Source: Planctomycetaceae bacterium (GTDB lineage: Bacteria; Planctomycetota; Planctomycetia; Planctomycetales; Planctomycetaceae). Taken from it: a DNA stretch of 34,408 nt. The notes under the pieces are model-generated. The model was not told the DNA's origin. It saw only the letters and a list, made by a program, of their open reading frames with translations, and searched no databases. The position numbers and the translations under genes were made by a program. The stretch is taken from contig JAQGHS010000138.1 of the NCBI GenBank assembly GCA_028291605.1, forward strand, positions 1 to 34,408, read 5' to 3'. Positions 5,748 to 34,408 of this stretch are shown piece by piece. Numbering within the stretch: position 1 is the stretch's first letter; each line of letters opens with the position of its first letter.

Positions 5748-5800
5748 ATTGTGATTGCGAATCGCACGGAGCATCCCGAAAAATATTGGAATGTCATGCC

Positions 5801-19300: not shown

Positions 19301-21733
19301 ATCAAATACCGGCGAGAACGTGCCGGAGGTCGTGCCGGGTTCGAATGCCAGCCCGGGATCACTCAGATTGACCACGGTGCCGTCGGTCCAGCTCACTCCG
19401 CTACTGCTCGTGGCATTGGTTACGGACGAGAGCCACAGACCAGAATCCTGAGTCGGTGGCCCCAGCGATACCGTCGTATCATAAATCGCGCTGGTCCCTC
19501 CGTCTCCGTCGGTCAATACCATGCTGACCGTGCGTGCCCCGAGGGTCGGATTGCTCAAATCCGAGTTCCGGTAAGTAATGTTCTCGATCAACGCGGCCGT
19601 ACTGATTTCATCAGCGTTCGTATTGAGCGTAATGACCAGATCGACTCCGTCCGAACCGCCGGTCAATGTCCCAATGATCGTTCCGCCGTAGGTGACGTTG
19701 GTCCCGGACACTCCGATTTGCCCTGCATCGGTCCCTTGATTGCGCACGTTCAGGATGTCTTCGGCGGAGTCACTGCCCGAGGCTAACGACACGGTCAGTG
19801 TGCCGGTATTGAAGTTGGGCGAATCGATGTCGGTGATGGTCGTATCGGATCCCCGCTCGATGACGATGGGCCCGCCCCCCGCCGTATAGCGCAGGAGGTC
19901 TCCTTCCAATCCAGAGATCGCTGGGCCACTGGTGTCCGAATGGACCGAGATCATGGCGACGGTCCAGTCATCTCCATCCAGGGTCCAGGAGTTGGTGACC
20001 GACGCGGCGCCCGCTGTTACCGTTCCACCGCCATAAGAAATGTCCCCGACGTCATCCCAGTACTCAGTCTGGCCTGCGCCGGGTGTGGAAGTGGTACCGT
20101 GGTGTGCATGGACGACCCCGAACACCAGATCGCCAGTCTGAGACGCGATCGTTGCCGAGCCGAAGCTCGAGTCACCATTTGTTGTTGCGAAATGTTGTAC
20201 GGGATTGGACTGATCTACGCCGGTGAACGTCATGACGCCAATCACCGCGCCATGGTAGCTCGACCCTGTCAGATTGACGACCACATTGTGGGTGCCGGGC
20301 GTCGGTGACAGCAGTTCCCAGAACTCCATGCGCGAATGGGTACCGACTTGACTTCCGACACCGATGCGAGTCAGCGCAACTCCGTTATAGGTGACCGAGC
20401 TGCCAATGCTGCCGTGCGGGTCAATGGCGATGCTGACCAGCATCAGCCGATTACTTCCCGACGTCGTGTGCGACAGTGTGGTTGAAAGCACTCCATCAAT
20501 TGCGACACTGGAAGCGGAATCCACTGCAACATTCAGCAGATTCGTCCAATTCTGCTGTACGGTGTCGCTCACCGCGACGGCTGTCTCAATACTTCCCGTG
20601 CTGTATTCCAGATTCCAGTCACCGCCAAACAGGGCACTGCCTGTGTTGTTGGAACTGGCGCTGACATCCGCGCTGGTCAGTTGGCTTAACGTGCCCAACA
20701 ATTGGACTCCACCAGCACTGGCTGCCACCTCGCAACCGTAGAGCAGAATGTCGGCATCAGTTGATAGCGCAGCCTGCCAGGACTGAAATTCGCCTTGGTA
20801 GTTCGCGACCAGATCCTGTGTCAGCCAGACGTCCCCCATTTTGACCGCACCCGCGGTCCCGTGCGAAAATACGTGAATTGCATCGATGTCATGCCGTCCG
20901 CGCAGGGTATCCGTGATCTGCTCGATTCCATCATGCCCGCTATCGAGAACGATCACTTCGATCTGTCGATCAGACGTGGACTGGCTTTGTAAATCCGCGA
21001 CGATCTGCTGGTAGTTATCAACCTGAGAATCGACAAACGCCACTTCGGTGCGGTGCGTGGCAGGCTGCGGCGCAGACACGAGTACAAGGCCGCTGCCGAT
21101 CGATCCGGTATGGTCAGAGTCGTCCGCGTGCTGGCTGGGTGCTGTCTGTGAATCGATCGTGGCGGGTACATCGGTGCTTGTCTGCTGTGCCGCGCCCGGC
21201 ATCGGTGCAGCATCAGGATGCTCGCTGCTGGTCCCCTGCAGCGTGTCGTCGGCTGGAGATTCCAGCGAGTTACCCGCGACTGGCCCATCAGTCGTGGATT
21301 GGCTCGGTGAGCCCATCAAGTCGGAGTACAACTCTTCGTGAGGAGCCGCTTCCACCCCGGGGTCAACCAACTGCTGCTCGGTCTGAGACGCCGCTAACTC
21401 ATGGAAAGCGGCCTGCTCGGAAGTCGATTCCACGGCAGTCGAAGACGTCGCAGCTTGTGGCGAGACCGAATCGGCACTGGCCTTCTGGCTGCCACTCGAA
21501 TCCGTAGCAGCAATTTGATCGGTCCGAACTTGCTCGGTCGGCGCCGATTCTGCCGAGTCAGGGGCTGGGACCGCCATCGGACTGGCACTCAATAACAGGC
21601 GATCTTCGAGCGCGATGATTTCCACCGCAGACTTCCGCGCCTCGGCCGCCTTTGATCTCCAGGCTTTCCTCAGGGCGTGGCGCAGCTCACTGGTTGCGAG
21701 TTGCGCACGAAATAGCAGATTTCCGAATTGCAT
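10364..21733 (-). CDS. Giant (3789 aa) repetitive surface protein: LEPR-XLL-like N-terminus, DUF4347-like domain, 16 tandem 135-aa repeats, cadherin-like domains, C-terminal TM anchor
   Basis: Single uninterrupted ORF. N-terminus ...VEIIALEDRLLLSASP; DUF4347-type VFSHGTAG...DILLYGCEVAASAGG...LFGGDWNLEYSTG; 16x VNDAPTATIVPASYSVNEQTTLTL... repeats; CSPG/cadherin-like DVNDAPVATVDQYTT...GVLSNDTDVDN; C-terminal hydrophobic segment ATLVTGVFSVGYVIWILRSGTLVATMLSLAPSWIALDPLPIL. Confidence 0.9.
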   Translation of the reverse strand: MQFGNLLFRAQLATSELRHALRKAWRSKAAEARKSAVEIIALEDRLLLSASPMAVPAPDSAESAPTEQVRTDQIAATDSSGSQKASADSVSPQAATSSTAVESTSEQAAFHELAASQTEQQLVDPGVEAAPHEELYSDLMGSPSQSTTDGPVAGNSLESPADDTLQGTSSEHPDAAPMPGAAQQTSTDVPATIDSQTAPSQHADDSDHTGSIGSGLVLVSAPQPATHRTEVAFVDSQVDNYQQIVADLQSQSTSDRQIEVIVLDSGHDGIEQITDTLRGRHDIDAIHVFSHGTAGAVKMGDVWLTQDLVANYQGEFQSWQAALSTDADILLYGCEVAASAGGVQLLGTLSQLTSADVSASSNNTGSALFGGDWNLEYSTGSIETAVAVSDTVQQNWTNLLNVAVDSASSVAIDGVLSTTLSHTTSGSNRLMLVSIAIDPHGSIGSSVTYNGVALTRIGVGSQVGTHSRMEFWELLSPTPGTHNVVVNLTGSSYHGAVIGVMTFTGVDQSNPVQHFATTNGDSSFGSATIASQTGDLVFGVVHAHHGTTSTPGAGQTEYWDDVGDISYGGGTVTAGAASVTNSWTLDGDDWTVAMISVHSDTSGPAISGLEGDLLRYTAGGGPIVIERGSDTTITDIDSPNFNTGTLTVSLASGSDSAEDILNVRNQGTDAGQIGVSGTNVTYGGTIIGTLTGGSDGVDLVITLNTNADEISTAALIENITYRNSDLSNPTLGARTVSMVLTDGDGGTSAIYDTTVSLGPPTQDSGLWLSSVTNATSSSGVSWTDGTVVNLSDPGLAFEPGTTSGTFSPVFDIDTFAGDGNAKVRGLSLVHSTTTIGTGGGSVTLQNGDILFTTEDNESFGGVVGTNKDVWLFRPTTPGDESTGTFSILINSPTASKIRDISLVESTITVGGYTLNAGDLLMTQEGSAYDKNVWLFRATSVGDGTTAGTFAGTSFGFTQQIGAFEFVNQTMTLGDVTLQAGQLVLSVLGNDTVGDNNLPVTKFDLFVLDVIQAGSTTTSTASLLLQGSDVGISAGGEEWDALTIVVSNHAPALSGANNFTTITEDPVSNPGTLLSTIVSGHVTDSDAGAMGGVAVTALDNTNGMWQWSANGGYDWSNFGTPSSTAARLLIADSNTYVRFVPNANWNGTVTNGFTFRAWDQTGGTAGLTADASLNGNSTPFSSNTASSSITVTGVNDAPTATIVPASYSVNEQTTLTLQGTGLSIADVDAASGTVQATVSVVSGTLTASAGTTGVSVAGNGTNSITLSGTITQINNLLAGNLTATLTYINSSNTPAASDTLTLSVSDLGNTGAGGVLTGSDTATIAVTAVNDAPTATIAPASYAVNEQTTLTLHGQGLSIADVDAGPGTVQTTVSVVSGTLTATAGTTGVSVSGSGTNSITLSGTITQINNLLAGSLSATLTYFNSSDAPVASDTLTLLVSDLGNTGSGGAQTGNDTAVITITAVNDAPTATIVPASYSVNEQTTLALQGTGMSIADVDAGSGTVQVTVSVVSGALTAAAGTTGVLVSGSGTSSVTLSGTVGQVNILLAGNLAATLTYFNSSDTPAANDTLTLSVSDLGNTGSGGTLTASDSATITLVAVNDGPTATIVPASYSANEQTILTLHGTGLSIADVDAGAGTVQTTVSVVSGTLTAAAGTSGVSVSGSGTSTVTLTGTVSQINALLAGNLSGTLTYLNSSDTPAASDTLTLAVSDLGNTGTGGVLTGSDMASITITAVNDAPTATIVPASYSLSEQATLILHGTGLSIADVDAGSGTVQATVSVIAGTLTAAAGTTGVSVSGSGTNSITLSGTLSQINNLLAGNLSATLTYVDNSNTPGASDTLTLAVSDLGNTGTGGASTASDSATITVSSVNDAPTATIVPVSYAVNEQTTLTLHGTGISIADVDAGSGTVQATVSVISGTLTASAGTSGVSVSGSGTSTITLSGSISQINDLLAGNLAATLTYFNGSNTPAASDTLTLNVNDLGNTGSGGALTGSDSATITLTAVNDAPTAIIVPASYAVNEQTTLALHGTGLSIADVDAGSGTVQATVSVVSGTLTAAAGTTGVAMSGSGTSTITLSGTITQINNLLTGNLSASLTYFNSSDTPAASDTLTLTVSDLGNTGSGGSLTGSDTAVIAVTAINDAPTATIVPASYSVNEQTTLTLQGTGLSITDVDAASGAVQATVSVVSGTLTASAGTTGVSVAGNGTNSITLSGTISQINNLLAGNLTATLTYINSSNTPATSDTLTLAVSDLGNTGSGGILTGSDTASIVLASVNDAPTATISLPGYSVNEQTTLTLHGTGFSIADVDAGSGTVQATVSVVSGALTATAGTTGVVVSGSGTSTITLSGTISQINDVLAGNLAATLTYFNSSNTPAASDTLTLMVSDLGNTGSGGALTASDTATITVVAVNDAPTATISLPSYSVNEQTSLTLHGTGLSIADVDAASGTVQATVSVVSGTLTALAGTTGVSVTGSGTNSITLSGTVSQINNLLAGSLSATLTYINGSDTPAATDTLTLAISDLGNTGTGGVLTSSDSATIAVTAVNDAPTATIVPVSYAVNEQTILVLHGTGLSIADIDAGAGIVQATVTVVSGSLTASAGTTGVSVSGSGTSTITLSGTVSQINNLLGGSFAATLTYINGSDTPAASDTLTLAISDLGNTGSGGTLTASDSAIITVSAVNDAPTATIVPASYSVNEQTALALQGTGLSIVDVDATSSTVQATVSVVSGTLTAAAGTTGVSVSGSGTSSITLSGTVSQINNLLAGNLTATLTYINSSNTPAASDTLTLAVSDLGNTGVGGTLTSSDSATIAVTAVNDAPTATIVPTSYAVNEQTTLTLHGTGLSIADVDAGSGTVQATVSVVSGTLTATAGTTGVSVSGSGTNAVTLSGTITQINNLLAGGLSATLTYFNGSDTPAASDTLTLSVSDLGNTGSGGAQTGSDSATITLTAVNDAPTATMTPAGYSVNEQTTLTLHGTGLSIADVDAGSGAVQALLSVAEGTLSASAGSTGAVVTGNGTNTITLSGTVSQINSLLAGNLSATLTYINNSDTPVAADTLTLAVSDQGNTGVGGPLTASDSATITVAAVNDAPSATIISANYAVNEQTTLVLQGTGLSIADIDVGSGTVQATLSVVAGTLTASAGTTGVSVSGTGTNTITLSGTLSQINDLLAGNLAATLTYFNGSDTPAATDTLTLEVSDLGNTGLGGALIASDFATINVAAVNDAPTAVIAAGNFVVDEQTTLILHGTGLNIADLDAGSGTVQATLSVISGTLTAEAGTTGVTISGNGTNAVTLSGIVGQINELLAGNLSGTLTYFIDSDTPPPTDTLTLLVSDLHNTGLGGTLTDTDSAVITLNALNDAPVILSNQLTVTEGQTTVVTASNLNATDSDNPRQDLTYTVSNVTHGYFEVVGAEGVSITTFTQLDIDAGRILFVHDGGEVAPTYSVAVTDGNSLVRPAAATITFTDVNDAPVATVDQYTTNQYASLDIPVDTGVLSNDTDVDNTQLTAEVIQQPEHGTVRMNADGSFEYIPDKIFLGRDTFTYVAFDGSATSAVVTVDITVTQGGNGVTTSEDPINTGNHLPSIVTPNPGTPISNNNGHVPILSTPSNTLLDDDYLITGTSPGFKSPRLASIESAGDVYGEDDLLIYLNEEKPLNRTARLTTSKTAATSEVRTVRNDELQDNLDSFQEELERGAKDQQLTDQFVAGAATLVTGVFSVGYVIWILRSGTLVATMLSLAPSWIALDPLPILDSLGDPGRKANDADQSDDSLLSLVASRMSKSSVDSEPERRPPAET
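10500..10650 (-). other. C-terminal transmembrane/anchor segment of the giant protein
   Basis: Hydrophobic stretch ATLVTGVFSVGYVIWILRSGTLVATMLSLAPSWIALDPLPIL followed by a charged tail. Confidence 0.6.
11678..18157 (-). repeat. Sixteen tandem in-frame repeats of exactly 405 bp (135 aa) inside the giant CDS
   Basis: The Val/Ile codon opening each (V/I)ND(A/G)P unit begins at + coordinate 12080 + 405k for k=0..15 (12080, 12485, 12890, ... 18155). The next related boundary (LNDAP) is at 11675. 16 x 405 = 6480 bp. Confidence 0.95.
20560..21050 (-). other. DUF4347-like domain within the giant CDS
   Basis: VAFVDSQVDNYQQIVADLQ...IEVIVLDSGHDGIEQITDTL...DAIHVFSHGTAGAVKMGDVWL...WQAALSTDADILLYGCEVAASAGGVQLLGTLSQLTSADVSASSNNTGSALFGGDWNLEYSTGSIET matches my recollection of DUF4347. 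Confidence 0.75.
21578..21618 (-). other. LEPR-XLL-like N-terminal motif of the giant protein
   Basis: IIALEDRLLLSASP near the N-terminus, similar to the LEPR.LLS consensus described for giant planctomycete/proteobacterial proteins (from memory). Confidence 0.6.
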
Positions 21734-22011: not shown

Positions 22012-23982
22012 TTGTCAGTTTCTTCCAGTTTGCTGCTGGACGGTTTCGAGGCCGCAATGCCCGCTAGTTTGTTTCATCGACATCGGAACCCAGCATCTGT
22101 GCATCTGAACAATCCGCAGTGGATTGGCACGATGATCGAGAAAATTCGAAAAACCGTTCCGTCATTGCACGGCAATACGGATAGTGAGCTGAGTGTCCGC
22201 TCGGAAACTCTGAGTGAGACCGTCTGCGGCGGCGTGTCGATTCTGGACGAATCCATTCTGATCCCCGGCCTCGCACTCATGACCGAGGCACTGCGGCGGC
22301 GCACTGGAAAACTGGTTTACGACGTTCAACTGCAGGCGGCCATGGCACTGGCAGTTGGCAGCAGTGTCGAAATGCAGACAGGTGAGGGGAAAACCCTATC
22401 CGTGGGATTGGCCGCCTACCTGCACGCGCTGCAGCGTCGCGGTGTGCATGTCGTCACAGCGAACGCGTATCTGGCCGAGCGCGACTGCCACGATCTGGGG
22501 CCGGCCTACGAAATACTCGGCCTGACCTGCGGTTTCCTGCCGGAAGGCAACAATCTGGCCCTGAAGCGGGCCGCGTATGAATGTGATCTCACCTATGGAA
22601 CTGGATACGAATTCGGTTTTGACTACTTGCGAGATCAAGTTCAACTGCGAAATCATCGCGGCCGCCGCCTCGGCGAAAAGTGCCTCAGCAACTGCCAGCG
22701 TTCCATTTTCAGTGTACAAGAAACGACCCAGCGAGGTTTATGGCGGGCGATCGTCGACGAAGCGGACAACGTCTTGCTGGACGATGCCTGCTCACCACTG
22801 GTGCTGAGCGGCAACACCGCAATGACGGCGGTCGATGAGCAGGCGCATCAACTGGCTCGCCGTACCGCAGCCAATTTACATTGCAATCACGATTTTCGTT
22901 TTGATCACGAGTCCCGTCGCGTGGCGTTGACCGATGTCGGAGTTGAAGCCGTCCACGGCTGCGACCTCAATTCCATTGAACATGTCCTCCAGCGTCCCTG
23001 GATCGATTATGTCGAGCACGCGCTCCAGGCAGAATGGTTGTACCATCGTGACGTGCACTACATCGTGCGCGAGGCTCAGGTGCAGCTTGTTGATGGCACC
23101 ACGGGGCGAGTCTTCGAAGACCGCAAATGGTCTGCCGGTTTACATCAGGCCGTAGAAGCCAAGGAAGGAGTGCTTATCACGGCGGAATCACAACCCCTGG
23201 CCAAGGTGACGCGGCAGCGCCTTTATAAGTCGTACCAAACGCTGACGGGGCTGACAGGGACCGCCACAGGAAGTGAGAGTGAGTTCTTGGATATTTATGG
23301 TCTCCGCGTCATTTCCGTTCCCCTGCGCGTGCCGTCTCAACGGCGCATGGAACGTCCGCGATTCTTCGTAGATGGAGCTGCAAGACTAAACGCGGTGGCG
23401 GCAGAAGTAGGCGAACTTCATCGCACGGGACGACCGGTCCTCGTCGGCACGCGCAGTATCGCAGAGACCGGCGAGCTTTCGGCGCTGCTGAAGCAGCAAC
23501 AAGTTGCACATCAGGTATTAAGCGGAGTTCAGGACGCGGACGAAACCGCCATCATTAGCGCGGCGGGAAATCCAGGTTCCGTTACGATTTCAACCAATAT
23601 GGCCGGCCGAGGCACCGACATCCAGTTGTCCCCCAGGTCTGCCGCTTTGGGGGGGCTGCACGTCATCGTTTCTGGGCGGCACGAAGCCAGTCGAATCGAC
23701 CGGCAGATAATCGGCCGCGGGGCGCGCCAGGGCGACCCCGGATCGGCCCGAGTTTACTGCTCGGGTGACGACTGGCTGGTGCAGTCGTATGGCCCGTGGA
23801 TTCGCGATGCCTTGCGCCGCTACGCCGATTCCCGCGGTGAAGTCGCTCAAGACTTCTCGGTGGCGTTCGACCGAGCCCAACGGAGTTGTGAGCGACAACA
23901 GTGTCAGATACGAAGGCAACTGTACCAGGAGGACCGTCGACGTACTGAAGTCCTGGTGAAACTGGATAGTCGATTAGCATGA
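22012..23982 (+). CDS. Short SecA-like preprotein translocase ATPase (accessory SecA paralogue lacking the canonical C-terminal tail)
   Basis: 656 aa (start uncertain; ATGs at 22057 and 22132 are alternatives). Walker A EMQTGEGKT; DEADNVLLDDACSPLVLSG (cf. SecA DEVDSILIDEARTPLIISG); YIV...VDGTTGRVFEDRKWSAGLHQAVEAKEGV; GLTGTA; TISTNMAGRGTDI; GRGARQGDPGSARVYCS. Confidence 0.88.
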   Translation: MSVSSSLLLDGFEAAMPASLFHRHRNPASVHLNNPQWIGTMIEKIRKTVPSLHGNTDSELSVRSETLSETVCGGVSILDESILIPGLALMTEALRRRTGKLVYDVQLQAAMALAVGSSVEMQTGEGKTLSVGLAAYLHALQRRGVHVVTANAYLAERDCHDLGPAYEILGLTCGFLPEGNNLALKRAAYECDLTYGTGYEFGFDYLRDQVQLRNHRGRRLGEKCLSNCQRSIFSVQETTQRGLWRAIVDEADNVLLDDACSPLVLSGNTAMTAVDEQAHQLARRTAANLHCNHDFRFDHESRRVALTDVGVEAVHGCDLNSIEHVLQRPWIDYVEHALQAEWLYHRDVHYIVREAQVQLVDGTTGRVFEDRKWSAGLHQAVEAKEGVLITAESQPLAKVTRQRLYKSYQTLTGLTGTATGSESEFLDIYGLRVISVPLRVPSQRRMERPRFFVDGAARLNAVAAEVGELHRTGRPVLVGTRSIAETGELSALLKQQQVAHQVLSGVQDADETAIISAAGNPGSVTISTNMAGRGTDIQLSPRSAALGGLHVIVSGRHEASRIDRQIIGRGARQGDPGSARVYCSGDDWLVQSYGPWIRDALRRYADSRGEVAQDFSVAFDRAQRSCERQQCQIRRQLYQEDRRRTEVLVKLDSRLA

Positions 23983-24134
23983 GTTCAATCCGGCAAAGCC
24001 CGTAGTGGGTAGCCATGCTGCTAGAACGCAATGGTGACACTGATTAGAGGTCGAAGCGGAATGTTGGACAGGCCGTTATTCGGCATGCTGTGAAAGTGAA
24101 TGCTGTGAAAGTGAATACAAGGGGCGGTATCGCT

Positions 24135-24989
24135 ATGCAACGATTAGTAATTTCATTCCTGTGCATTTCGCTCACGCTGTTCTGTCATGTCCAAACCGTG
24201 TTGGCAGACAACCTCGAAGGCTTCACTGAGCCTTTCCGTCAAATTGATATCGCGTTTGCGGAAGCCGGAGTGATCGATACGATTCAGGTGTCCGAAGGGG
24301 AAGTGGTCCGCCCCAATCAGGTCCTGGCAGAACTGCGGAAGGAAGTCTTGATTGCGTCACTCGCGGTGGCAGGCAAGTTGAAAGACGCCCGTGGTAAGCT
24401 CAATTCCGCCGCGGCGGAACTGCGTCAACGGAACGCCTATCTTGTGAAGGTGGAAAAGCTACAAGGCCATGTCTCTTCAGAGGAGCTGGCGAAGGCCGTT
24501 CTCGACAAGGACGTCGCAGAGGCACAGTTGCTGGCCGTTAAGGAAGAACTCGAGGTGCGGGAGCTCGAGTATCAGCGGATTCAGGAAGAAATTGATCGTC
24601 GACGAATCCGCTCGCCGATCGGTGGCGTGGTGACTCAGATTCAGAAGGACGTTGGCGAGTATGCTTCGCCGACACATCCAGTCGTCATGACGGTCGTTCA
24701 GCTCAACCCGCTGATGGCCGTGTTCTCGGCGACACCGCAAGCTGCGGGAACTCTCAAGGCAGGCAAGAGCGTCAAGGTCGCGGTGGGAGCCGATACGGCC
24801 AACGCAGATGCGATCGTGCACTTTGTCTCGCCCGTGCTGGATGCACAAAGCGGAACAGTCTTGTTGAAAATTCAAATCCCCAATGCCAACGGGAAGTTTC
24901 GCAGCGGTGATAAATGTCGATTGATGTTGGATACAACCCGAACCGAAGTCACCAAGGCCGAGCCGCGCAAGCCTGCCAAGAAACCTTGA
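24135..24989 (+). CDS. HlyD/RND-type periplasmic adaptor (membrane fusion protein) with signal peptide
   Basis: ORF 24090..24989; ATG at 24135 gives MQRLVISFLCISLTLFCHVQTVLADN. Split lipoyl domain (EAGVIDTIQVSEGEVVRPNQVLAELRKEV ... RRRIRSPIGGVVTQIQKDVGEYA), helical hairpin (GHVSSEELAKAVLDKDVAEAQL), and C-terminal FRSGDKCRLML. Confidence 0.85.
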   Translation: MQRLVISFLCISLTLFCHVQTVLADNLEGFTEPFRQIDIAFAEAGVIDTIQVSEGEVVRPNQVLAELRKEVLIASLAVAGKLKDARGKLNSAAAELRQRNAYLVKVEKLQGHVSSEELAKAVLDKDVAEAQLLAVKEELEVRELEYQRIQEEIDRRRIRSPIGGVVTQIQKDVGEYASPTHPVVMTVVQLNPLMAVFSATPQAAGTLKAGKSVKVAVGADTANADAIVHFVSPVLDAQSGTVLLKIQIPNANGKFRSGDKCRLMLDTTRTEVTKAEPRKPAKKP

Positions 24990-25123
24990 CGATACCTCGA
25001 CCACCGTTGAGCTTGTCCACATTTAGTGGTCGTGTAAATTACTAACAGACTTCACATTGCCTGCTCGACCTTTGGTTCCCCCTGCTCTGTCCTGTGTCGG
25101 TGAGATCTTTGAAAGTACGCTCG

Positions 25124-26545
25124 ATGATCGCCTCCGAACAGACTCCCGAACTCATCACACCGCCGTCCATCCCGGCCGGCGCTGTGATTGAGGACCGGCT
25201 GCAAGTCGAGGCGATGGCGGCCGTCATCGATTTGATCGATCGCCTGGCCGGCGCCAGTTCAATGCAGGCCACCTGCCAGCAACTGGCGGTGGCGCTCCGA
25301 GAGTACCTGGAGTGCAGCGAAGTCTATGTTGGAGTGCCGTCCACGCAAGACGGCCCAGTTCGCATTGTCGGTATCTCGGACAGCAGCCAGAGATCGGACA
25401 ACACTCAATTGGCAGAACTCGCCGACGGAGTGTGCGAAGAAGTGGCACTCCGGCAAAAGCCGGCGGTCTGGCCGCCTAAGGGGCGCGACCGGGGGGGCCT
25501 GCGGATCCACCGTCGCCTGCTCGAGGAACTGGGCGCCACCGAACTCATTTCGGTTCCTCTGATCGATGATCGCGGAGTGCTGCGGGGAGTCTGGTTGCTC
25601 GTGTGGAGAGAGCAACAGCCGTCGCTTCGACGCGACCTCTTCCTCCGTATTGCCCCCGCGCCGATCGCGTCGTTGCTGGAAGTAATCCAACGCGCCGAGC
25701 CACACTGGCTGGCGCGCCAAGTTTCCAAGCTGATCCGTCCAGGCTCGTATCGTCGCTGGCAAACCGTCGTGGCGAGTGTCGCACTCATCACATTGTTAAT
25801 GCTGATTCCCGTGCCGCACGTCGTGACATGTGAGTGCGAATTACAGCCCGTGACTCGCCGGTTCGTCGCCCCACAATTTGATGGCAAATTGGAACGCTCG
25901 TTCGTGAAGCCGGGCGATGTGGTGACTCGCGATCAACTTCTCGTCAAATTGGATGCCAGCGAACTGCGAATGGAGCAGGCGGCCTTGCAGGCCGAACATC
26001 ATCGCACCGCCAAGAAGCGGGACGGTGAACTCGTCGAACGGAACTTTGGAGCAGCATCCGTCTCCAGGCACGAGCTTGATCGCTTCACCACCAAGCTGGA
26101 GCTGCTCGAGCAACGCATTCACAATCTCGAAATCCGCAGCCCCATCGATGGCCTGGTGGTCACCGGCGACCTGCAGCGTGCCGAGGGGATGCCGGTCACG
26201 CGTGGCCAATCCCTGCTCGAAATCGCACCACTCGACAAACTGGCTGTCGAAATTGCCATCCCGGAAGCGGAGGTTCGCCATGTGCACGAAGGGATGCGCA
26301 TCGACATCTCGTTTGAGTCTGGGGCCGACGCTCCGCGATCAGAGAATCTGGGTAGAATCCATCCCCGATCCGAGATTCGCTACGACCACCACGTCTTCAT
26401 CGCCGAGACGGAACTGCCGAACGAGCAGGCCAGGCTGCGACCCGGGATGCATGGTCAGGCTCGAATCCACGTGGGTACCTGTTTTCTGGGCTGGAAGTTG
26501 TTCCATCGCGTTTGGGAACGGCTGACACTGATGGTAGGGTGGTAA
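25124..26545 (+). CDS. GAF-like sensory domain fused through one TM helix to a HlyD-type adaptor
   Basis: ORF 25094..26545 (ATG 25124). N-terminal ~190 aa GAF-like (AVIDLIDRLAGASSMQATCQQLAVALREYLECSEVYVGV...LGATELISVPLIDDRGVLRGVWLLVWRE), TM (WQTVVASVALITLLMLIPVP), then FVAPQFDGKLERSFVKPGDVVTRDQLLVKLD ... LEIRSPIDGLVV ... LRPGMHGQARI. Confidence 0.8.
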   Translation: MIASEQTPELITPPSIPAGAVIEDRLQVEAMAAVIDLIDRLAGASSMQATCQQLAVALREYLECSEVYVGVPSTQDGPVRIVGISDSSQRSDNTQLAELADGVCEEVALRQKPAVWPPKGRDRGGLRIHRRLLEELGATELISVPLIDDRGVLRGVWLLVWREQQPSLRRDLFLRIAPAPIASLLEVIQRAEPHWLARQVSKLIRPGSYRRWQTVVASVALITLLMLIPVPHVVTCECELQPVTRRFVAPQFDGKLERSFVKPGDVVTRDQLLVKLDASELRMEQAALQAEHHRTAKKRDGELVERNFGAASVSRHELDRFTTKLELLEQRIHNLEIRSPIDGLVVTGDLQRAEGMPVTRGQSLLEIAPLDKLAVEIAIPEAEVRHVHEGMRIDISFESGADAPRSENLGRIHPRSEIRYDHHVFIAETELPNEQARLRPGMHGQARIHVGTCFLGWKLFHRVWERLTLMVGW

Positions 26546-26546
26546 C

Positions 26547-28703
26547 GTGGGCGGCACCGTCGACCTATCGACTCGAGACCTGGCGCAATTGCGGCTCAAG
26601 CTCGCCGACCATCTGACGTTTGCTCCGAATCGATATGGGGGCACTACTTACTTTCATCTGGAGGATCGGGCCGGGTCGCAATACTTCCGGCTCGGTTACT
26701 CGGAATATGTCTTCATTTCCCTCCTGGACGGAGCCACGACAGTCAGTGAAGCGCTCGCCGCCACCGCGCGCATACTAGGGCGAAATGCTCTGTCCGAAGC
26801 CCATGCCACGGCCATTTGTAGTTGGCTGATTCGGCAGGACCTGGTCCAGACATCGGGATCATCGATCCGTACCGCCACCAACCGTCCCACATCCAAACCT
26901 GCCGGATCATTGCTGCAGAGCGTGTTTTGGACTCGCATTCCCCTCTGTCATCCTGATTCGCTGCTGAAGCAATTCGTGCCATTCTGCGGTTGGTTGTATG
27001 CTCCCGTCACGTTCGTAGCGTGGCTGCTGGTGATGGCGTGTGCGGCATTCGCCGTCAGCGGTCAATGGGATCGGGTCGTGGCGGCATCGAGTGGCGTGTT
27101 TAGTTCTGGAGCCTGGTATCAACTCGTGATCGCCTGGGCGTTCCTCAAGGTGTTTCATGAATTGTCCCATGGCCTGGCCTGCCGCCGTTTTGAAGGCCGT
27201 GTGGGGGCCATGGGCATCGTGCTGATCCTGTTGGCACCTCTGGCCTACATCGATGTCTCCGCTTCCTGGCAACTGTGTTCCAAGTGGCAGCGAATCATTG
27301 TCGCCGCAGCCGGGATCTACATGGATCTGTGGATCACGGCCCTCGCCGCCATCCTCTGGGCGCAGACAAGTTCTGTCGTTTATGCCTCGTTTTTGCACGG
27401 CCTGGTGATGATGGGAATTGTCACCCTCATCTTTAATGGCAATCCATTGATCCGTTCCGACGGGTATTACATCCTCGCCGACATCCTGGAAATCCCCAAT
27501 CTGGCCAATCGATCGGCAATGCATCTGAAGCGCTGGTGCCTGCGTTGGCTGTTCGGCGTTCATCAGGGTATCCCCGACGATGTATCCTGGCGCTACTATT
27601 TCATGCTCGGTTATGCTGTCGCGGCACTGGTCTGGCGAGTGCTCGTCTGCGTCAGTCTCGTCCTCGGCTGCACCGTCATGTGGCAGGGAGCCGGTCTGAT
27701 AGTCTCACTCATCGGAGTCTTCTGCTGGGGCTTCCTTCCGCTCGGCCAGTTCCTGTCCTATCTCTGGCACCTGGCCAGAACCAATGTCCCGAGTCTGCTG
27801 AGGGGACTTACCTTCCTGACGATCGCCGCCAGCGTCTCAGGCCTGTTGAACTATATCCCGTGGCCAACGGCGTTCCAGTCGCCTGGAATCGTGGAATACT
27901 CCGATCTTGCAAGCGTCCGTGCATGTGTCCAGGGGTTCATAAAGAGTATTCACGTCCATGACGGGCAAGTTGTTCGAGAGGGCGAGCTATTGCTTGAGCT
28001 GAGCAGCGCGGAGCTCAAGCTCGAATGCCGGGACCTCGAACTCGCCGTCGATCAGGCAGAGGCCAAGTTTCGCGTCGCACAGAATTCCGGTCAGTTTGGA
28101 ACGGCGCAAGTCGAAGAACAGAATCGGCAGGCGCTCGCCAGGCAGCTTGAGGAAAAGGTTCACCAACTTTCGCAACTGGAAGTTCGCGCTCCGAGATCTG
28201 GACGCATCATTACCCGACAGTTGGCCTCTCGCCAGGGAACGTTCGCCAAAGAGGGTGACATCTTGCTTGAGATTGGCGACGAGGAAGACAAGGAGATTCG
28301 ATTTTCAGTTGCCCAGCGGTCACTATTTGCATTTGAACGCGAGCAGCAGGTGGCAGTCCGCCTGATGGATGGCACGAGATTCCAGGGCGCCCTGAAGACC
28401 CTTTCACCACGAGGATCCGATGAGCCGCCTCACCCAGCGCTCTGTGCCCCGCTTAGCGGTCCCTTGACTGTCGTTGAGCGGGCAGCGACTGACGACAAGC
28501 AGAAACATCAGAAAGAATACCGCTTCCCCGAACCGCGCATGTCGGGAACCTGTTCAATTCCACAATCGGTCTCAACCACAATTCACGCTGGTTCCATCGT
28601 GTCTGTGTCACCCATTGGAAGCCGTCAGACAATCGGCCAGGCGCTGTTTCAATGGATGTCGGTGACGTGGAAAGGACTCAACGCGGAGCGGGATGCCCTG
28701 TAG
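26547..28703 (+). CDS. PqqD-like domain / M50 site-2 protease / HlyD-type adaptor fusion
   Basis: 718 aa, GTG start 1 nt after the previous stop. N-terminal PqqD-like (FAPNRYGGTTYFHLEDRAGSQYFRLGYSEYVFISLLDGATTVSEAL); M50 zinc motif FHELSHGLACRRF plus FNGNPLIRSDGYYILAD; multiple TMs; C-terminal lipoyl halves (VQGFIKSIHVHDGQVVREGELLLEL ... LEVRAPRSGRIITRQL). Confidence 0.85.
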   Translation: MGGTVDLSTRDLAQLRLKLADHLTFAPNRYGGTTYFHLEDRAGSQYFRLGYSEYVFISLLDGATTVSEALAATARILGRNALSEAHATAICSWLIRQDLVQTSGSSIRTATNRPTSKPAGSLLQSVFWTRIPLCHPDSLLKQFVPFCGWLYAPVTFVAWLLVMACAAFAVSGQWDRVVAASSGVFSSGAWYQLVIAWAFLKVFHELSHGLACRRFEGRVGAMGIVLILLAPLAYIDVSASWQLCSKWQRIIVAAAGIYMDLWITALAAILWAQTSSVVYASFLHGLVMMGIVTLIFNGNPLIRSDGYYILADILEIPNLANRSAMHLKRWCLRWLFGVHQGIPDDVSWRYYFMLGYAVAALVWRVLVCVSLVLGCTVMWQGAGLIVSLIGVFCWGFLPLGQFLSYLWHLARTNVPSLLRGLTFLTIAASVSGLLNYIPWPTAFQSPGIVEYSDLASVRACVQGFIKSIHVHDGQVVREGELLLELSSAELKLECRDLELAVDQAEAKFRVAQNSGQFGTAQVEEQNRQALARQLEEKVHQLSQLEVRAPRSGRIITRQLASRQGTFAKEGDILLEIGDEEDKEIRFSVAQRSLFAFEREQQVAVRLMDGTRFQGALKTLSPRGSDEPPHPALCAPLSGPLTVVERAATDDKQKHQKEYRFPEPRMSGTCSIPQSVSTTIHAGSIVSVSPIGSRQTIGQALFQWMSVTWKGLNAERDAL

Positions 28704-29087: not shown

Positions 29088-29134
29088 CGTTGCTTGCGGA
29101 GAGGGTGCGCTTGATTCGTTCTTACTTGAGTCGA

Positions 29135-31012
29135 ATGCCGAGCCGATGTGAAAAGCTGATACTGGCCCTGGGGTTACTTGCGGCTGGCTGTCACACGGCC
29201 CCACTGCGCACCGAGCCATCGCCCGTCCCCGCAGAGTCCGTGGTCAGCCTGACACCGGAACGCTCGGTGTTGAATCGGTACTACGCGGAAACCGTACGCC
29301 CCGTAAATCTCCCCAGTATCCCGCTTCCCGAAATCGTCGTGACTCCCGAATCCAATGAGTTCTGGCCACTGACCTTGCGCGAGGCGGTCAACATTGCCCT
29401 GAGGAATTCTCAGGTCATTCGGACTCTCCAAGGAGACCAAGTCACATCGACGGGTGTCACGAACTACGACCCCGCCATCTACCAGGCGACCCGCGACGCA
29501 GCGGTCGCGGCGTTCGACGCCAGCGTGAATTTGAACTATACCGCGGATCGATTCAATCAACCTCCCGCCACCGTGTTCGGCCCGGGCATTCCCGCCAATA
29601 CCCGTCGTGATGATGCCACCCTCTCGGCCTCGCTGGTTAAGCCGTGGGCCACTGGTGCGACGACGTCCGTCGCCTACAATCCGAATCCCGGTTATCTCTT
29701 TTTCCCCAATGGCACCAGCGGTCTCTACAATCCCAAATACGCCTCGAATACCGAGCTGTATATCAAGCAACCGTTGTTGCGCGGAGCTGGTATCGACGTG
29801 AATCGTGCTCCCATCCGGATCGCGCAATTACAAGCCGACCAGTCCATCTGGGACGTCAAACAGGCGACCCTGTCGCTCGTTCGCAGTGTCGAAGAATCGT
29901 ACTGGTCATTGCAGGCATCGCGAACGGCCTTGCAGGCCATTGAAGATATTTTGCCGTTACTGGATAGCATCGTGCGAATTCAGCAGGAGCGATTCGAAGA
30001 AGAGCGAACGATCCGGGCGGAAGTGGCCAAGGCGCGAACCCAACAAGCCGCCTTTCGGCAAGCCGCCATTGATGCTCGCTCCAACGCCCTGAACCAGGAA
30101 TTGCATCTGCGGAATCTCCTGGGACTGCCTCCCAACGATGGACTCACGATTGACCCGACTGACCGGGCCTCGGAATCACCTCTGAAATTCGACCCCGTTC
30201 AAATCATCCAGACCGCGGCCGACAACCGGCCCGAATTGATGCGTCAACGGCTGGGGATCCGGATCGGCGAGATGAACCTGATCGTCGCGGAAAATGGCTT
30301 CAAACCTCAACTTGATCTGCAAGGGCTGTATCGCACCAATGGTCTCAGCGACAACGTCGGTGATTCGCTGGATATGATGTTTCAGAACAAATTCACCGAC
30401 TGGACGGCGGGTGCCTCATTTTCGATGCCGATCGGCCGTCGGGCAGCACGCGCGAACCTGCACGCTGCGGAATTGGAACTCACCCGCGAGAGAATCATCT
30501 TGCGGCAGAAAATGCACGCCACGGCGCACCGCCTCAGTGATGTCCTGCGTCAACTCGAATCGGTGCGCTACCAGTACGACGAAGCGAAGGTCCGCGTGGA
30601 AGAATCAGCGATCTGGATGGAAGGTTCTCGCGGACGGTATGAGGAGCCTCCCCCCAGCAGCGACGGTGGGGATTGGTTACTGGCGGCCCTGAATGACTAT
30701 CTACTATCACTGCGTTCGCAAGCCGACTCGATCACCTCACGGGCGCAATTGCTCGCACAGTACAACACGTTGCTCGCGACTCTCCAGGAGGTCCAGGGGA
30801 CACTGCTCGCCAACTATGACATCCAGCTGGAAGGGGACCCGATCACCCAGGCGCGGAATAGCCGGTGGCTCCCGGAGAGCGAGCGGGTGATTGACCCGGA
30901 GATCTGGAATCTCGACGCGGGAACCCCTGGATCGCCCTTCGCCGCTCCTGCCACGCCGCCTCCCCCAACCGTGCCAGCGTCCCGGCCGCTGCCTGGACGT
31001 TATGGCTTTTAG
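29135..31012 (+). CDS. TolC-family outer membrane efflux lipoprotein
   Basis: ORF 29090..31012 (TTG) with ATG at 29135: MPSRCEKLILALGLLAAGCHTAP has a lipobox (LAAGC). OEP features LREAVNIALRNSQVIRTL, QPLLRGAGIDVNRAPIRIAQL, VEESYWSLQASR, RPELMRQRLGI, LLAQYNTLLATLQEVQGTLL. Confidence 0.85.
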   Translation: MPSRCEKLILALGLLAAGCHTAPLRTEPSPVPAESVVSLTPERSVLNRYYAETVRPVNLPSIPLPEIVVTPESNEFWPLTLREAVNIALRNSQVIRTLQGDQVTSTGVTNYDPAIYQATRDAAVAAFDASVNLNYTADRFNQPPATVFGPGIPANTRRDDATLSASLVKPWATGATTSVAYNPNPGYLFFPNGTSGLYNPKYASNTELYIKQPLLRGAGIDVNRAPIRIAQLQADQSIWDVKQATLSLVRSVEESYWSLQASRTALQAIEDILPLLDSIVRIQQERFEEERTIRAEVAKARTQQAAFRQAAIDARSNALNQELHLRNLLGLPPNDGLTIDPTDRASESPLKFDPVQIIQTAADNRPELMRQRLGIRIGEMNLIVAENGFKPQLDLQGLYRTNGLSDNVGDSLDMMFQNKFTDWTAGASFSMPIGRRAARANLHAAELELTRERIILRQKMHATAHRLSDVLRQLESVRYQYDEAKVRVEESAIWMEGSRGRYEEPPPSSDGGDWLLAALNDYLLSLRSQADSITSRAQLLAQYNTLLATLQEVQGTLLANYDIQLEGDPITQARNSRWLPESERVIDPEIWNLDAGTPGSPFAAPATPPPPTVPASRPLPGRYGF

Positions 31013-31034: not shown

Positions 31035-33536
31035 TTACCACCAGAACTCAGTCCGGACATATCGCAGAATCTGCATTCCGGCCATGCTGCGTAGAGTCTG
31101 CTGGCCACGATAAATTCGTCCGTAGCCACTCATGCCGGACCGCAGTTGGGATTGCGGATTGTCGACCCGACAATAAACAGTGACCGTGCCTTGCTGATCC
31201 GAGGGTGCGGCCGTAGCAGTACCTGCCGCCGTGGCAATGGGCGCAATCCGATCCACGCGGCCGGTGAATGTTTGCAGCGGAAAGGCGCGGGCCTTCAGGT
31301 TGATCGTTTGACCGATTTGAACCCCTTCCATCTTGTCCTCGGGAATATCGATTTCCGCCTCAAGACTGGTCAGATCCTCGATGGTGCAAATGAGTGTACC
31401 TTTTTCCAGAAACTGTCCCACTTTTTCCCGCAACCGGGGGGTCGTGACAAAGCCGGTCAGTGTCGAACACAATGCCTGTTTCGACTGCAAATCGCGATTG
31501 TAGTCCAGCTCTTCTTGGAACTTCTCTAGTCGAGCACGTTCCGCTTCGAGCTCCTGGGGGCGGGCACCCGCAGTCAGCAGGGCCAAGGCGGCTTCGGTAT
31601 CCGCCAGGTCTTTCACGCGTTTGGCGAGTTCCGCTTCAAACTGGAGATTCCCCGATGCTTCGCGAGTTCTCTTCTGGGAGAGCGCTTGCTGCAACAAGCC
31701 TTCAGCCACCTGGACCTTTTTCTTTTCCGATCGCAATTGCTCGCCCGCGAGGACCCCCTTGCGATACAACCGCTCTGAAATTGTGACTGACTGCTGGGCA
31801 AACGCGACCTCGGCCTGATGCAGAACGATCTGTTGATCGAATCGGGCCAATTCTTCTTTCAATCCCTGCTGTGCGCGTTCCAAGTCTTTGACCGCGAGAT
31901 CGCGCCATTGACGCGCCCGATCCACTTTGGCGCGCTGCTCCTGAACTTCTTCCGGGCGGGATCCGATTTCGAGGCGCTGCAGATTGGCGCGGACTTCGCG
32001 CACGGCGGCATCTTTCTGGGCGATCAAGCTTTGTAAATCGGGAACCTCAATCCGAGCCACCAGCGCGCCGGCAGAGACTTTATCTCCCTCATCGAAATGC
32101 ACTTCTTTCAAGAAGCCCGCGACCTCGGCTCGGACTTCCAGCCGCTTACCGGTCCGCACGTGAAATGTGCCTCCAGCACGCTCATCGATGCGAACGGCCC
32201 CCATCACGAGGGGGACCGCAATCAGCAGCGTCAACCACATTGCAATTCGAAGGGGCCGTCCAGTGATCATCTTGCGAACCTCGCCATTGTTAAAACCTCG
32301 AAACAGACGCTTGATCGTGAAAACTGCCAGAAACAGGGCGAATGCGACACCTAACACACCACCCCGGGATTGGGCGAGTCGGGTCACATTGACGAACACG
32401 AAAACCAGAAACATTAGAGAAAATGTCCAACTGATCATGCCATACAATGTGACGGCAAAGTCGCGCGGCGCCGGGGAAGGCCTCGGAGCCCCCCACAGCA
32501 CGCAGCGCAGCCAGGCCAGCCACCGCTCCCAGCTGCGACCGCGTAAATTTGGGATCTCCAGCCAGTCGCTCAACAGGTAGTAGCCGTCGAGCTTTAAGAG
32601 TGGATTAAAATTCATAAACACGCGGGCGCCGCAGACCGACAGCACGACCGACGCCAGGTAGTTGACGAACGAGTCCATCACCGTCAGCCGCCAGATGAAT
32701 GTGGCGACCGCCCAGATACACAGATCGCACCAGGCGCCGGCTAACGTCACCCATAACCGGGGCCACTTGCTGGGAATCAACCAGGCATCGGAAACATTGC
32801 AATAGAGGCACGGCGTAAAAAACATCATCAGGAAGCCCACTTCGTGGACCTCGCCACCATGATGCTTGCAGGTCAGGCCATGAGCAAATTCATGGCAGAT
32901 TGTCGCCGCGATTAATGTGAACCAGACGAACGCAAATGTCTCCCAGCGCATCGCCTGGGGAAATGCAGCCAGAAACGACAACCGATGCGCCCAGAGTTCC
33001 GCCCCTGCAGCCGCGATGACAATGCACGAGCCAACAAAGAATTCGAGGGTCCAAACCCACCGCAGTAAGGGCTCAACCCGGTTGAAGAGTCGGTCGGGAT
33101 CGAAAAAATTGTAGCGCCAGTAGAGAATGCTCTGCCTGGACTTCTTGCCGGAACCCGCGGACGCGTCATTCCAGTTCTCATCTTCTGAGTCGACATAACT
33201 CTTGCTGCGCGGCCGGCTGCCGGCTTTGTCCTTTAACAGATGGCGCTGCGATACCATCTCGATGAAGTCGTCGAGATCTTCCGACGACAGCTCTTCACCG
33301 AACTTGGCCTCGAAGGCATTCAGCACGGAGGATGAGGTTGCGGTCGCGTCTAACTGCGACAGCAGAAACCATTCCTGCTCACCGATTTGAAAATAGGCTT
33401 CGGTGACCGGATCTTTAATAACGTACTGATTCCCGGCGACCGAGCGCACGACCAGATCATCGCGCCGGCTGGGGAGCGATCGCTTCTTCGGTGCTGCCGC
33501 CGACGCGGGCACCGGTTCTGCAATAGCGGTCGCCAT
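31035..33536 (-). CDS. PqqD-like domain / M50 site-2 protease / HlyD-type adaptor fusion (second copy)
   Basis: 833 aa; PqqD-like N-terminus (DDLVVRSVAGNQYVIKDPVTEAYFQIGEQEWFLLSQLD), ICHEFAHGLTCKHHGGEVHEVGFLMMFFTPCLYCNVSDAWLIPSKWPR, NFNPLLKLDGYYLLSDWLEIPNLRGRS, HlyD half-motifs (VAGFLKEVHFDEGDKVSAGALVARIEV), long hairpin with KGVLAGEQLRSE. Confidence 0.88.
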   Translation of the reverse strand: MATAIAEPVPASAAAPKKRSLPSRRDDLVVRSVAGNQYVIKDPVTEAYFQIGEQEWFLLSQLDATATSSSVLNAFEAKFGEELSSEDLDDFIEMVSQRHLLKDKAGSRPRSKSYVDSEDENWNDASAGSGKKSRQSILYWRYNFFDPDRLFNRVEPLLRWVWTLEFFVGSCIVIAAAGAELWAHRLSFLAAFPQAMRWETFAFVWFTLIAATICHEFAHGLTCKHHGGEVHEVGFLMMFFTPCLYCNVSDAWLIPSKWPRLWVTLAGAWCDLCIWAVATFIWRLTVMDSFVNYLASVVLSVCGARVFMNFNPLLKLDGYYLLSDWLEIPNLRGRSWERWLAWLRCVLWGAPRPSPAPRDFAVTLYGMISWTFSLMFLVFVFVNVTRLAQSRGGVLGVAFALFLAVFTIKRLFRGFNNGEVRKMITGRPLRIAMWLTLLIAVPLVMGAVRIDERAGGTFHVRTGKRLEVRAEVAGFLKEVHFDEGDKVSAGALVARIEVPDLQSLIAQKDAAVREVRANLQRLEIGSRPEEVQEQRAKVDRARQWRDLAVKDLERAQQGLKEELARFDQQIVLHQAEVAFAQQSVTISERLYRKGVLAGEQLRSEKKKVQVAEGLLQQALSQKRTREASGNLQFEAELAKRVKDLADTEAALALLTAGARPQELEAERARLEKFQEELDYNRDLQSKQALCSTLTGFVTTPRLREKVGQFLEKGTLICTIEDLTSLEAEIDIPEDKMEGVQIGQTINLKARAFPLQTFTGRVDRIAPIATAAGTATAAPSDQQGTVTVYCRVDNPQSQLRSGMSGYGRIYRGQQTLRSMAGMQILRYVRTEFWW

Positions 33537-33594: not shown

Positions 33595-34017
33595 CTAGGA
33601 TGAGGTGGTCGATTCCAACTCGGGTTTCATGGGGCCTTTCAGCAACACCGTCTCGCTCTCTTCGTCCGTCAACAGATAGACGAAGAACGGAATCTTCAGT
33701 TGCAGACAACGAGCCGCACGGTGATGGCCGTCGATCAGCACGTGTCCGCGCACCAACTCGCCCGTTTCGGTGCGATACGTGATGTGGGCAATGATGCCCG
33801 GATATTTCGTATTAACGTGCGGCAGGTGCCCGGCGTGGATCACACTCGTGTCGACGGAATGTTGCACGCTCTCGTCGTCGAGTTCCACTTCCTCACGCCC
33901 ATCACGCACCAGCGTACGCGCGAGATCGACGTCGTAGAGATACTTATGGGCCATGTACCAAAACGTTTCGCGACCCGTAACGCAATGCGGACAATCTTTT
34001 TTGGCTTTAGCGGACAT
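33595..34017 (-). CDS. Small ParB/Srx-like protein with CxxC motif
   Basis: ORF 33595..34092. ATG at 34017 is preceded by a good RBS-like GAGG (gtccgaggtcaacATG). Contains DCPHC, and RGHVLIDGHHRAARCLQLKIPFFVYLLTDEE resembling the ParB-like DGHHR motif region. Confidence 0.65.
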   Translation of the reverse strand: MSAKAKKDCPHCVTGRETFWYMAHKYLYDVDLARTLVRDGREEVELDDESVQHSVDTSVIHAGHLPHVNTKYPGIIAHITYRTETGELVRGHVLIDGHHRAARCLQLKIPFFVYLLTDEESETVLLKGPMKPELESTTSS

Positions 34018-34097: not shown

Positions 34098-34140
34098 CAA
34101 AAGAAAAGGCAGCCCGGACACAGATGGTCGCTGGGCTGCC
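34098..34140 (-). terminator. Rho-independent terminator downstream of the Gly/Cys-repeat peptide gene
   Basis: Perfect 8-bp stem ggcagccc (34108..34115) / gggctgcc (34133..34140), 17-nt loop; on the - strand it is followed directly by TTTTCTTTTG (34107..34098). Confidence 0.75.
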
Positions 34141-34216: not shown

Positions 34217-34408
34217 CTACTTGCACTTGCCCTTCGGGGGAGCACAGTACTTGTTGCTGCCACCCTTCTTGCTGCCACCGCACTTGTTGCTGCCGCCCTT
34301 CTTGCTGCCACCGCACTTATCGCTGCCACCCTTCTTGCTACCACCGTGGTTGCTGCCGCCACACTTGTTGCTACCGCCGTGGTCACTGCCACCACACTTG
34401 TTGCTGCC
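34217..34408 (-). CDS. 3'-partial CDS for a Gly/Ser/Lys/Cys-repeat peptide (gene enters from the right edge of the window)
   Basis: - strand translation: GSNKCGGSDHGGSNKCGGSNHGGSKKGGSDKCGGSKKGGSNKCGGSKKGGSNKYCAPPKGKCK* (63 aa visible, TAG at 34219..34217). Strongly biased repeat units GGS(N/D)KC and GGS(K/D/N)(K/H). Not in the ORF track because no start lies inside the window. Confidence 0.7.
   Translation of the reverse strand, partial: GSNKCGGSDHGGSNKCGGSNHGGSKKGGSDKCGGSKKGGSNKCGGSKKGGSNKYCAPPKGKCK

Follow-up and report, generated by a model that had tools for sequence, protein, structure and literature searches.

RESULTS

Genes at the locus

The window analyzed here is a 34,408-nt stretch of DNA from a Planctomycetaceae bacterium (contig JAQGHS010000138.1, the entire contig C165 of our genome G000). 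At its right edge, the minus strand carries the 3′ part of a gene encoding a Gly/Ser/Lys/Cys repeat peptide, together with genes for a ParB-like small protein and for a PqqD-M50-HlyD fusion, and a TolC-type outer membrane efflux protein (OEP) is encoded convergently (Table 1). The repeat frame was present exactly as quoted in the original prediction, with six Cys and a stop at 34217, and is open at the contig end. The period of approximately 33 bp that had been read from it was recovered by TRF as a 33-bp tandem repeat across the frame (score 171). Since the window spans the contig from end to end, the truncation of the gene is due to the assembly and not to biology.

Table 1. Features of the peptide module and its probable continuation on a second contig
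Feature	Position	Strand	Remarks
TolC-type outer membrane efflux protein (OEP)	29090..31012	+	PF02321, 6.2e-34; convergent with the M50-HlyD gene
PqqD-like + M50 intramembrane metalloprotease + HlyD membrane-fusion protein	31035..33536	-	833 aa; C-terminus RTEFWW
ParB-like small protein	33595..34017	-	140 aa; N-terminal CxxC; DG[HN]HRAARCL box
Hairpin + T run, probable intrinsic terminator	34099..34140	-	just 3′ of the peptide gene; z -5.2
Leader-peptide gene, 3′ part	34217..34408	-	63 codons + stop; Gly/Ser/Lys/Cys repeat core; interrupted by the end of the contig
Probable 5′ part of leader-peptide gene	G000:C204:9336-9388		outside the window; encodes MSNTPSKKSRFHIERLE

Elsewhere in the window, two tandem long open reading frames (ORFs) on the plus strand (3513-5747 and 5786-7744) resemble, by eye, TolC-type outer membrane efflux proteins. 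The minus strand at 10364-21733 encodes a giant protein of 3,789 aa, whose gene contains a 405-bp repeat 16 times over and whose N-terminal sequence reads LEDRLLLSA; it scored 15.6 bits against the LEPR-XLL model NF012209 (cut-off, 17 bits) and is another LExR-tagged protein beside M50-HlyD genes. SecA-like, HlyD, GAF-HlyD and M50-HlyD genes at 22012-28703 (plus strand) make up a secondary-SecA/type I-like locus of the type in PMC4452313, and the SecA-like protein (22012-23982) belongs to this neighboring locus, not to the peptide module.

The repeat frame is a real gene

In a comparison with its relative L002, the window frame exhibited 4, 4 and 15 differences at codon positions 1, 2 and 3, respectively, corresponding to 15 synonymous and 6 nonsynonymous codons, and all indels were in-frame. 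Because of the third-position differences, the synonymous excess and the restriction to in-frame indels, the frame is coding and the gene is real. The alternative of a spurious frame running across a DNA tandem repeat has in its favor that the repeat is open in other frames too, but it is refuted by the codon-position pattern and the conservation of the leader taken together; the start, the terminator and the neighboring genes are conserved as well, and we give this alternative practically no credence.

The N-terminus, expected beyond position 34408, was found as a leader in complete relatives. The N-terminal half missing from the window is present in L002 (MAG Planctomycetaceae D1_Bin_8; MSNTTSKKSRFHIERLEDRIAPSVYAWGGDSCCDNGGSNHGG...CAPPPKTKCK) and L003 (Planctomicrobium piriforme MAG; MSTNNSAKKSRFQIERLEDRIAPCAYAW...), and the last 53 bases of contig C204, from the same genome as the window, encode its probable counterpart, with the contig end falling inside ATGAGCAACACC...CGCCTCGAAGA, that is, MSNTPSKKSRFHIERLE. 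It therefore seems that C204 and C165 hold one peptide gene split by an assembly gap within its own repeats. Contigs also end inside the same peptide gene in genomes G048, G082, G084 and G004. A ribosome-binding-like GAAAGG precedes the ATG on C204, L002 and L029. The lack of a start or ribosome-binding site, or a frameshift, had been named beforehand as grounds for abandoning the gene, and no such defect was found.

The hairpin 3′ of the peptide gene was missed by a simple scan because its loop limit was 8 nt. Terminator hairpins were found in relatives too (z -3.4 to -7.0), and the hairpin probably sets the peptide gene apart as its own transcription unit. Upstream regions of 19 peptide genes from the window's family were scored for a -24/-12 element of the sigma-54 type (TGGCACG-N4-xTGC); in 13 of them it scored 20 or more (background, 1.8%), at a distance of 75 to 121 nt from the gene, and RpoN was encoded in all seven of the genomes of this family that were tested. 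In other families the element was found in 0 of 9 cases. It is therefore lineage specific, and sigma-54 control was rejected as a general feature. On C204 (locus L079), such an element precedes the ATG at 9336 by about 106 nt, and a truncated ORF for a sigma-54 activator lies at L079:3794-4558.

A conserved leader precedes a hypervariable basic core

Complete relatives of the repeat peptide are about 69 to 245 aa long and share one layout, in which a hypervariable tail rich in Gly/Ser/Lys comes after a conserved N-terminus (F.[IM][ET]RLE[DE]RI[AV]P). The sixteen members aligned could be aligned only in this N-terminus, where F11, R15, L16, E17, R19, I20 and P22 (L002 numbering) were invariant. 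The leader is about 22 aa long, with no strongly hydrophobic stretch of the Sec signal type visible at the N-terminus. The core that follows is of low complexity, with 30 to 51% Gly plus Ser and 10 to 33% Lys plus Arg, and includes in some relatives (SSKK)n or, outside the window's family, (GGSSGGRK)n. Net charge was +5 to +36 in all Gly/Ser/Lys members except L071, whose core carries an acidic Asp/Glu/Pro insert and has a net charge of -4. Most C-termini have a Cys within the last three residues, and three have a Trp after a basic stretch. A plasmid search for the leader peptide gave no match.

A metal-binding role had been considered typical of such a tail. The six Cys of the window fragment, and the 7 to 9 Cys and 3 to 8 His in the cores of relatives from the same genus, would suit a Cys/His-rich secreted metal-binding peptide. 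Across the family, however, the number of core Cys ranges from 1 to 10, many relatives have 1 to 3, and some cores outside the window's family have none; the Cys spacing seen in the window peptide is a feature of its genus, and no core residue, Cys included, is conserved in number or spacing. What the family has in common is the leader and the basic Gly/Ser/Lys low-complexity tail, and Cys chemistry or metal binding by Cys is therefore not the shared function. As an account of the peptide, metal binding is highly improbable.

Two further kinds of tagged ORF were noticed beside these peptides. In L061 (8740-9258, plus strand) and L062 (335-868, minus strand), another protein family carrying RLE[DE]R[IV].P (LLWQGGL... 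MPAWAEDLLLEIQQEV), which is without repeats or a Pfam match, is encoded divergently to the Gly/Ser/Lys peptide. In L071 (4555-5142, plus strand), a second tagged ORF (HKLEDRVVPGSMW) with DESPVDETPVDET repeats lies beside the Gly/Ser/Lys peptide and is cut by the contig end.

The leader resembles the planctomycete LExR signal

A planctomycete-specific N-terminal export signal, RRLxxExLExRxLLA (PF07595), is said to have been proposed by Studholme in 2004. The leader shares with the LExR signal its N-terminal position and its spacing (hydrophobic-x-hydrophobic-x-x-L-E-x-R-x-x-P); it differs in having Phe at the first position and Ile/Met at the third. The same spacing is that of the cell surface export motif LxLExLExRxxP of Tuwongella (PMC8567305), to which the leader (F.I[ET]RLEDRI[AV]P, seven invariant columns) is conservative and not identical at the hydrophobic positions. 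Neither PF07595 (Pfam) nor NF012209 (NCBIfam) matched a leader peptide at E values up to 10. Whereas the LExR signal occurs on large surface proteins, the leader described here is found on short basic peptides tied to one locus.

The PqqD-M50-HlyD protein and its partners

That the neighboring gene would encode an M50-HlyD fusion with a PqqD-like domain was supported. The 833-aa protein matched HlyD (1e-19); across 20 sequences, its RTEFWW end was invariant, as were the two M50 motifs, HExxH and DGYY. The RTEFWW C-terminus was also seen in most of the class-wide loci. The match of the PqqD-like N-terminus to PF05402 had an E value of 0.015 for the window protein; for the relative L069, it was 6.5e-7. 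AlphaFold models of the PqqD domain (three sequences) were poor (pLDDT 52) and were rejected, and the assignment therefore rests on the Pfam match. The HlyD adaptor and the TolC-type channel are both present and conserved, the latter also in its position among the compared loci. This pair recalls type I secretion, which differs in its ABC transporter: none was found among the window ORFs scanned (other loci were sampled only), and nothing in the window's module could be recognized as an energy source, whether an ABC-type ATPase or another kind.

Loci combining M50-HlyD with a secondary SecA have been described before (Kamneva 2015, PMC4452313), and the peptide module resembles them in the fusion of M50 to HlyD and in the nearby OEP. 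Its M50-HlyD protein nevertheless belongs to another subfamily (27% identical, RTEFWW end), and the module differs from the secondary SecA/M50-HlyD/GAF-HlyD loci in lacking a SecA-like gene of its own and in carrying genes for a ParB-like protein and a small substrate. The NCBIfam model closest to the 833-aa protein was that of the daptide metalloprotease (NF041824; residues 29-416, 1.5e-59), with 202 bits against a curated cut-off of 300 bits; the LiaK/YydH model matched at 4.9e-8. Like these daptide and epipeptide proteases, which are M50 membrane proteases acting on small leader peptides, the protein has an M50 part, but it is fused to HlyD, and their modification enzymes were not seen nearby.

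The original prediction had envisaged an exported or modified, RiPP-like peptide. A true RiPP, its core modified before leader removal and export (e.g., by Ser, Lys or Cys chemistry, perhaps catalyzed by the ParB-like protein), would agree with the short gene, the conserved leader and variable core, the PqqD-like (RRE) protein encoded adjacently and the kinship of the M50 part to daptide and epipeptide maturation proteases; Ser kinases among the ParB-fold relatives would also fit. RiPP loci differ, however, in their tailoring enzymes: no YcaO, radical SAM, lanthipeptide or ATP-grasp enzyme was found among the Pfam-scanned neighbors (window ORFs and sampled loci), leaving the ParB-like protein, of unproven ParB kinship, as candidate. 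With the core residues, Cys included, also variable, we regard a modified product as unlikely; the exported half of the prediction is favored by the linkage described below, while the modified half was not supported.

The ParB-like neighbor was present as predicted, with its CxxC and DG[HN]HRAARCL box invariant among the homologs, and its kinship to ParB, a matter of motif, is less secure. No family model matched these proteins, including PF02195 at E values up to 10. In hhalign the similarity to ParB was weak (P = 0.03), with the DG[HN]HRAA box in register with the ParB GERR box. An AlphaFold model (pLDDT 46) had no Foldseek match; being too poor for matches to have meaning, it was rejected as evidence of a ParB fold. 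A relationship to ParB is thus weakly suggested by the box together with a single weak profile alignment. Among ParB-fold relatives are two Ser kinases, SerK and SbnI (PMC12704722). The box in register is what the protein would share with small ParB/Srx-fold proteins (SerK, SbnI and Srx), from which it differs in its unique CxxC and conserved His and in having no match to a solved structure.

The peptide co-occurs with the module

By tblastn and ORF inspection, the order leader peptide/ParB-like/PqqD-M50-HlyD, usually with a convergent TolC-type OEP, was found to be conserved; in the permuted loci of G048, G082 and G084, the peptide fragment is on the OEP side. The ParB-like profile matched 20 of 171 genomes of the window's family, in 13 genera. 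A leader peptide was found in 17 of these 20 (16 from the family-wide peptide search plus G099 from locus inspection), and a leader-containing match was found in none of the 151 ParB-like-negative genomes. Nine of the latter gave repeat-only matches, which were set aside because the leader was absent. Among the positive genomes, G084 has a Gly/Ser/Lys fragment at a contig end, and in G050 and G059, where contigs end close to the module, no leader peptide was seen. The peptide or its fragment is on the module's contig in 14 genomes. In G114, peptide and module are each found at a contig end, oriented compatibly with one locus; in G002, the ParB-like gene ends 61 nt from a contig end; and G060 and G120 have peptide and module on separate contigs.

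As a check set, loci not used in forming the hypothesis were collected by a class-wide ParB-like profile search, a search with a single ParB-like protein having matched only its own family in the phylum. Ten further ParB-like loci were found in other families. In all eight of those that include a PqqD-M50-HlyD gene, a peptide with the RLE[DE]R leader and a basic tail rich in Gly/Ser or Gly/His is encoded no more than about 400 nt away; L224 has two such peptides, encoded divergently. The locus L227 is cut by a contig end. The short contig L226 (898-3831) has no PqqD-M50-HlyD gene, and what comes after its ParB-like gene is an ORF of 800 aa with a tag typical of planctomycetes, LEPLEDRITP, at its start, which suggests that the ParB-like protein may serve other LExR proteins too. 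Locus order was kept across at least five families; the proximity of the peptide to M50-HlyD and ParB-like genes, whose absence from other genomes would have spoken against the prediction, was found in many genera.

Leaders of one type group together in the M50 tree (support for the ERLE clade, 1.00), a pattern that fits coevolution but is also explained by shared descent. A phylum-wide rule placing M50-HlyD genes beside LExR genes was rejected: 4 of 40 test regions had such a neighbor versus 1 of 37 controls, which is not significant, and one of the four matches was spurious, lying inside an M50-HlyD protein. Since M50-HlyD paralogs are not enriched beside LExR genes across the phylum, the link is special to the RTEFWW subfamily.

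DISCUSSION

The analysis established the reality of the gene, the conservation of its leader, its linkage to the module and the domain content of the latter. On balance, we think it probable that the repeat ORF encodes the substrate of a dedicated leader-dependent export locus. According to this proposal, the gene product would be a small precursor whose N-terminal leader, about 22 aa long, is a variant of the LExR signal specific to planctomycetes. The PqqD-like domain of the fusion protein would dock the leader, the M50 intramembrane metalloprotease would cleave it near its RI[AV]P end, and the HlyD part, together with the adjacent TolC-type OEP, would move the basic, flexible Gly/Ser/Lys tail through the periplasm and the outer membrane. 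Once exported, the tail may serve as a polycationic peptide of the surface or matrix. An accessory role, perhaps as a nucleotide-binding switch, would fall to the ParB-like protein.

The peptide might instead be an ordinary surface protein using the general LExR pathway, with neighbors (for instance, in envelope maintenance) that are merely coregulated. The signal does occur on many proteins without such neighbors (52 genes in Tuwongella), and both the phylum-wide result and the two genomes with the peptide away from the module would be in keeping with this. The near-perfect co-occurrence and adjacency in two independent sets, and the locus order kept over families, argue against it, and we judge it quite unlikely. 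Returning to the dedicated export locus, we offer more tentatively the possibility that it is the first identified machine reading the LExR tag, with PqqD-M50-HlyD serving as receptor, peptidase and adaptor in one chain, together with a ParB-like cofactor, for polycationic (possibly modified) peptides. Among the open-access papers searched, none dealt with the leader peptide, with its ParB-like partner or with a pairing of the tag and such a machine, and none named a receptor or peptidase of the LExR tag.

The LExR tag, a non-Sec N-terminal tag proposed in 2004, is carried by many planctomycete surface proteins. The locus links a small LExR-tagged substrate to one fusion protein with candidate receptor, protease and adaptor, a minimal system in which the reading of this surface protein tag becomes testable. 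Strongly basic peptides of low complexity also emerge from it as a widespread family.
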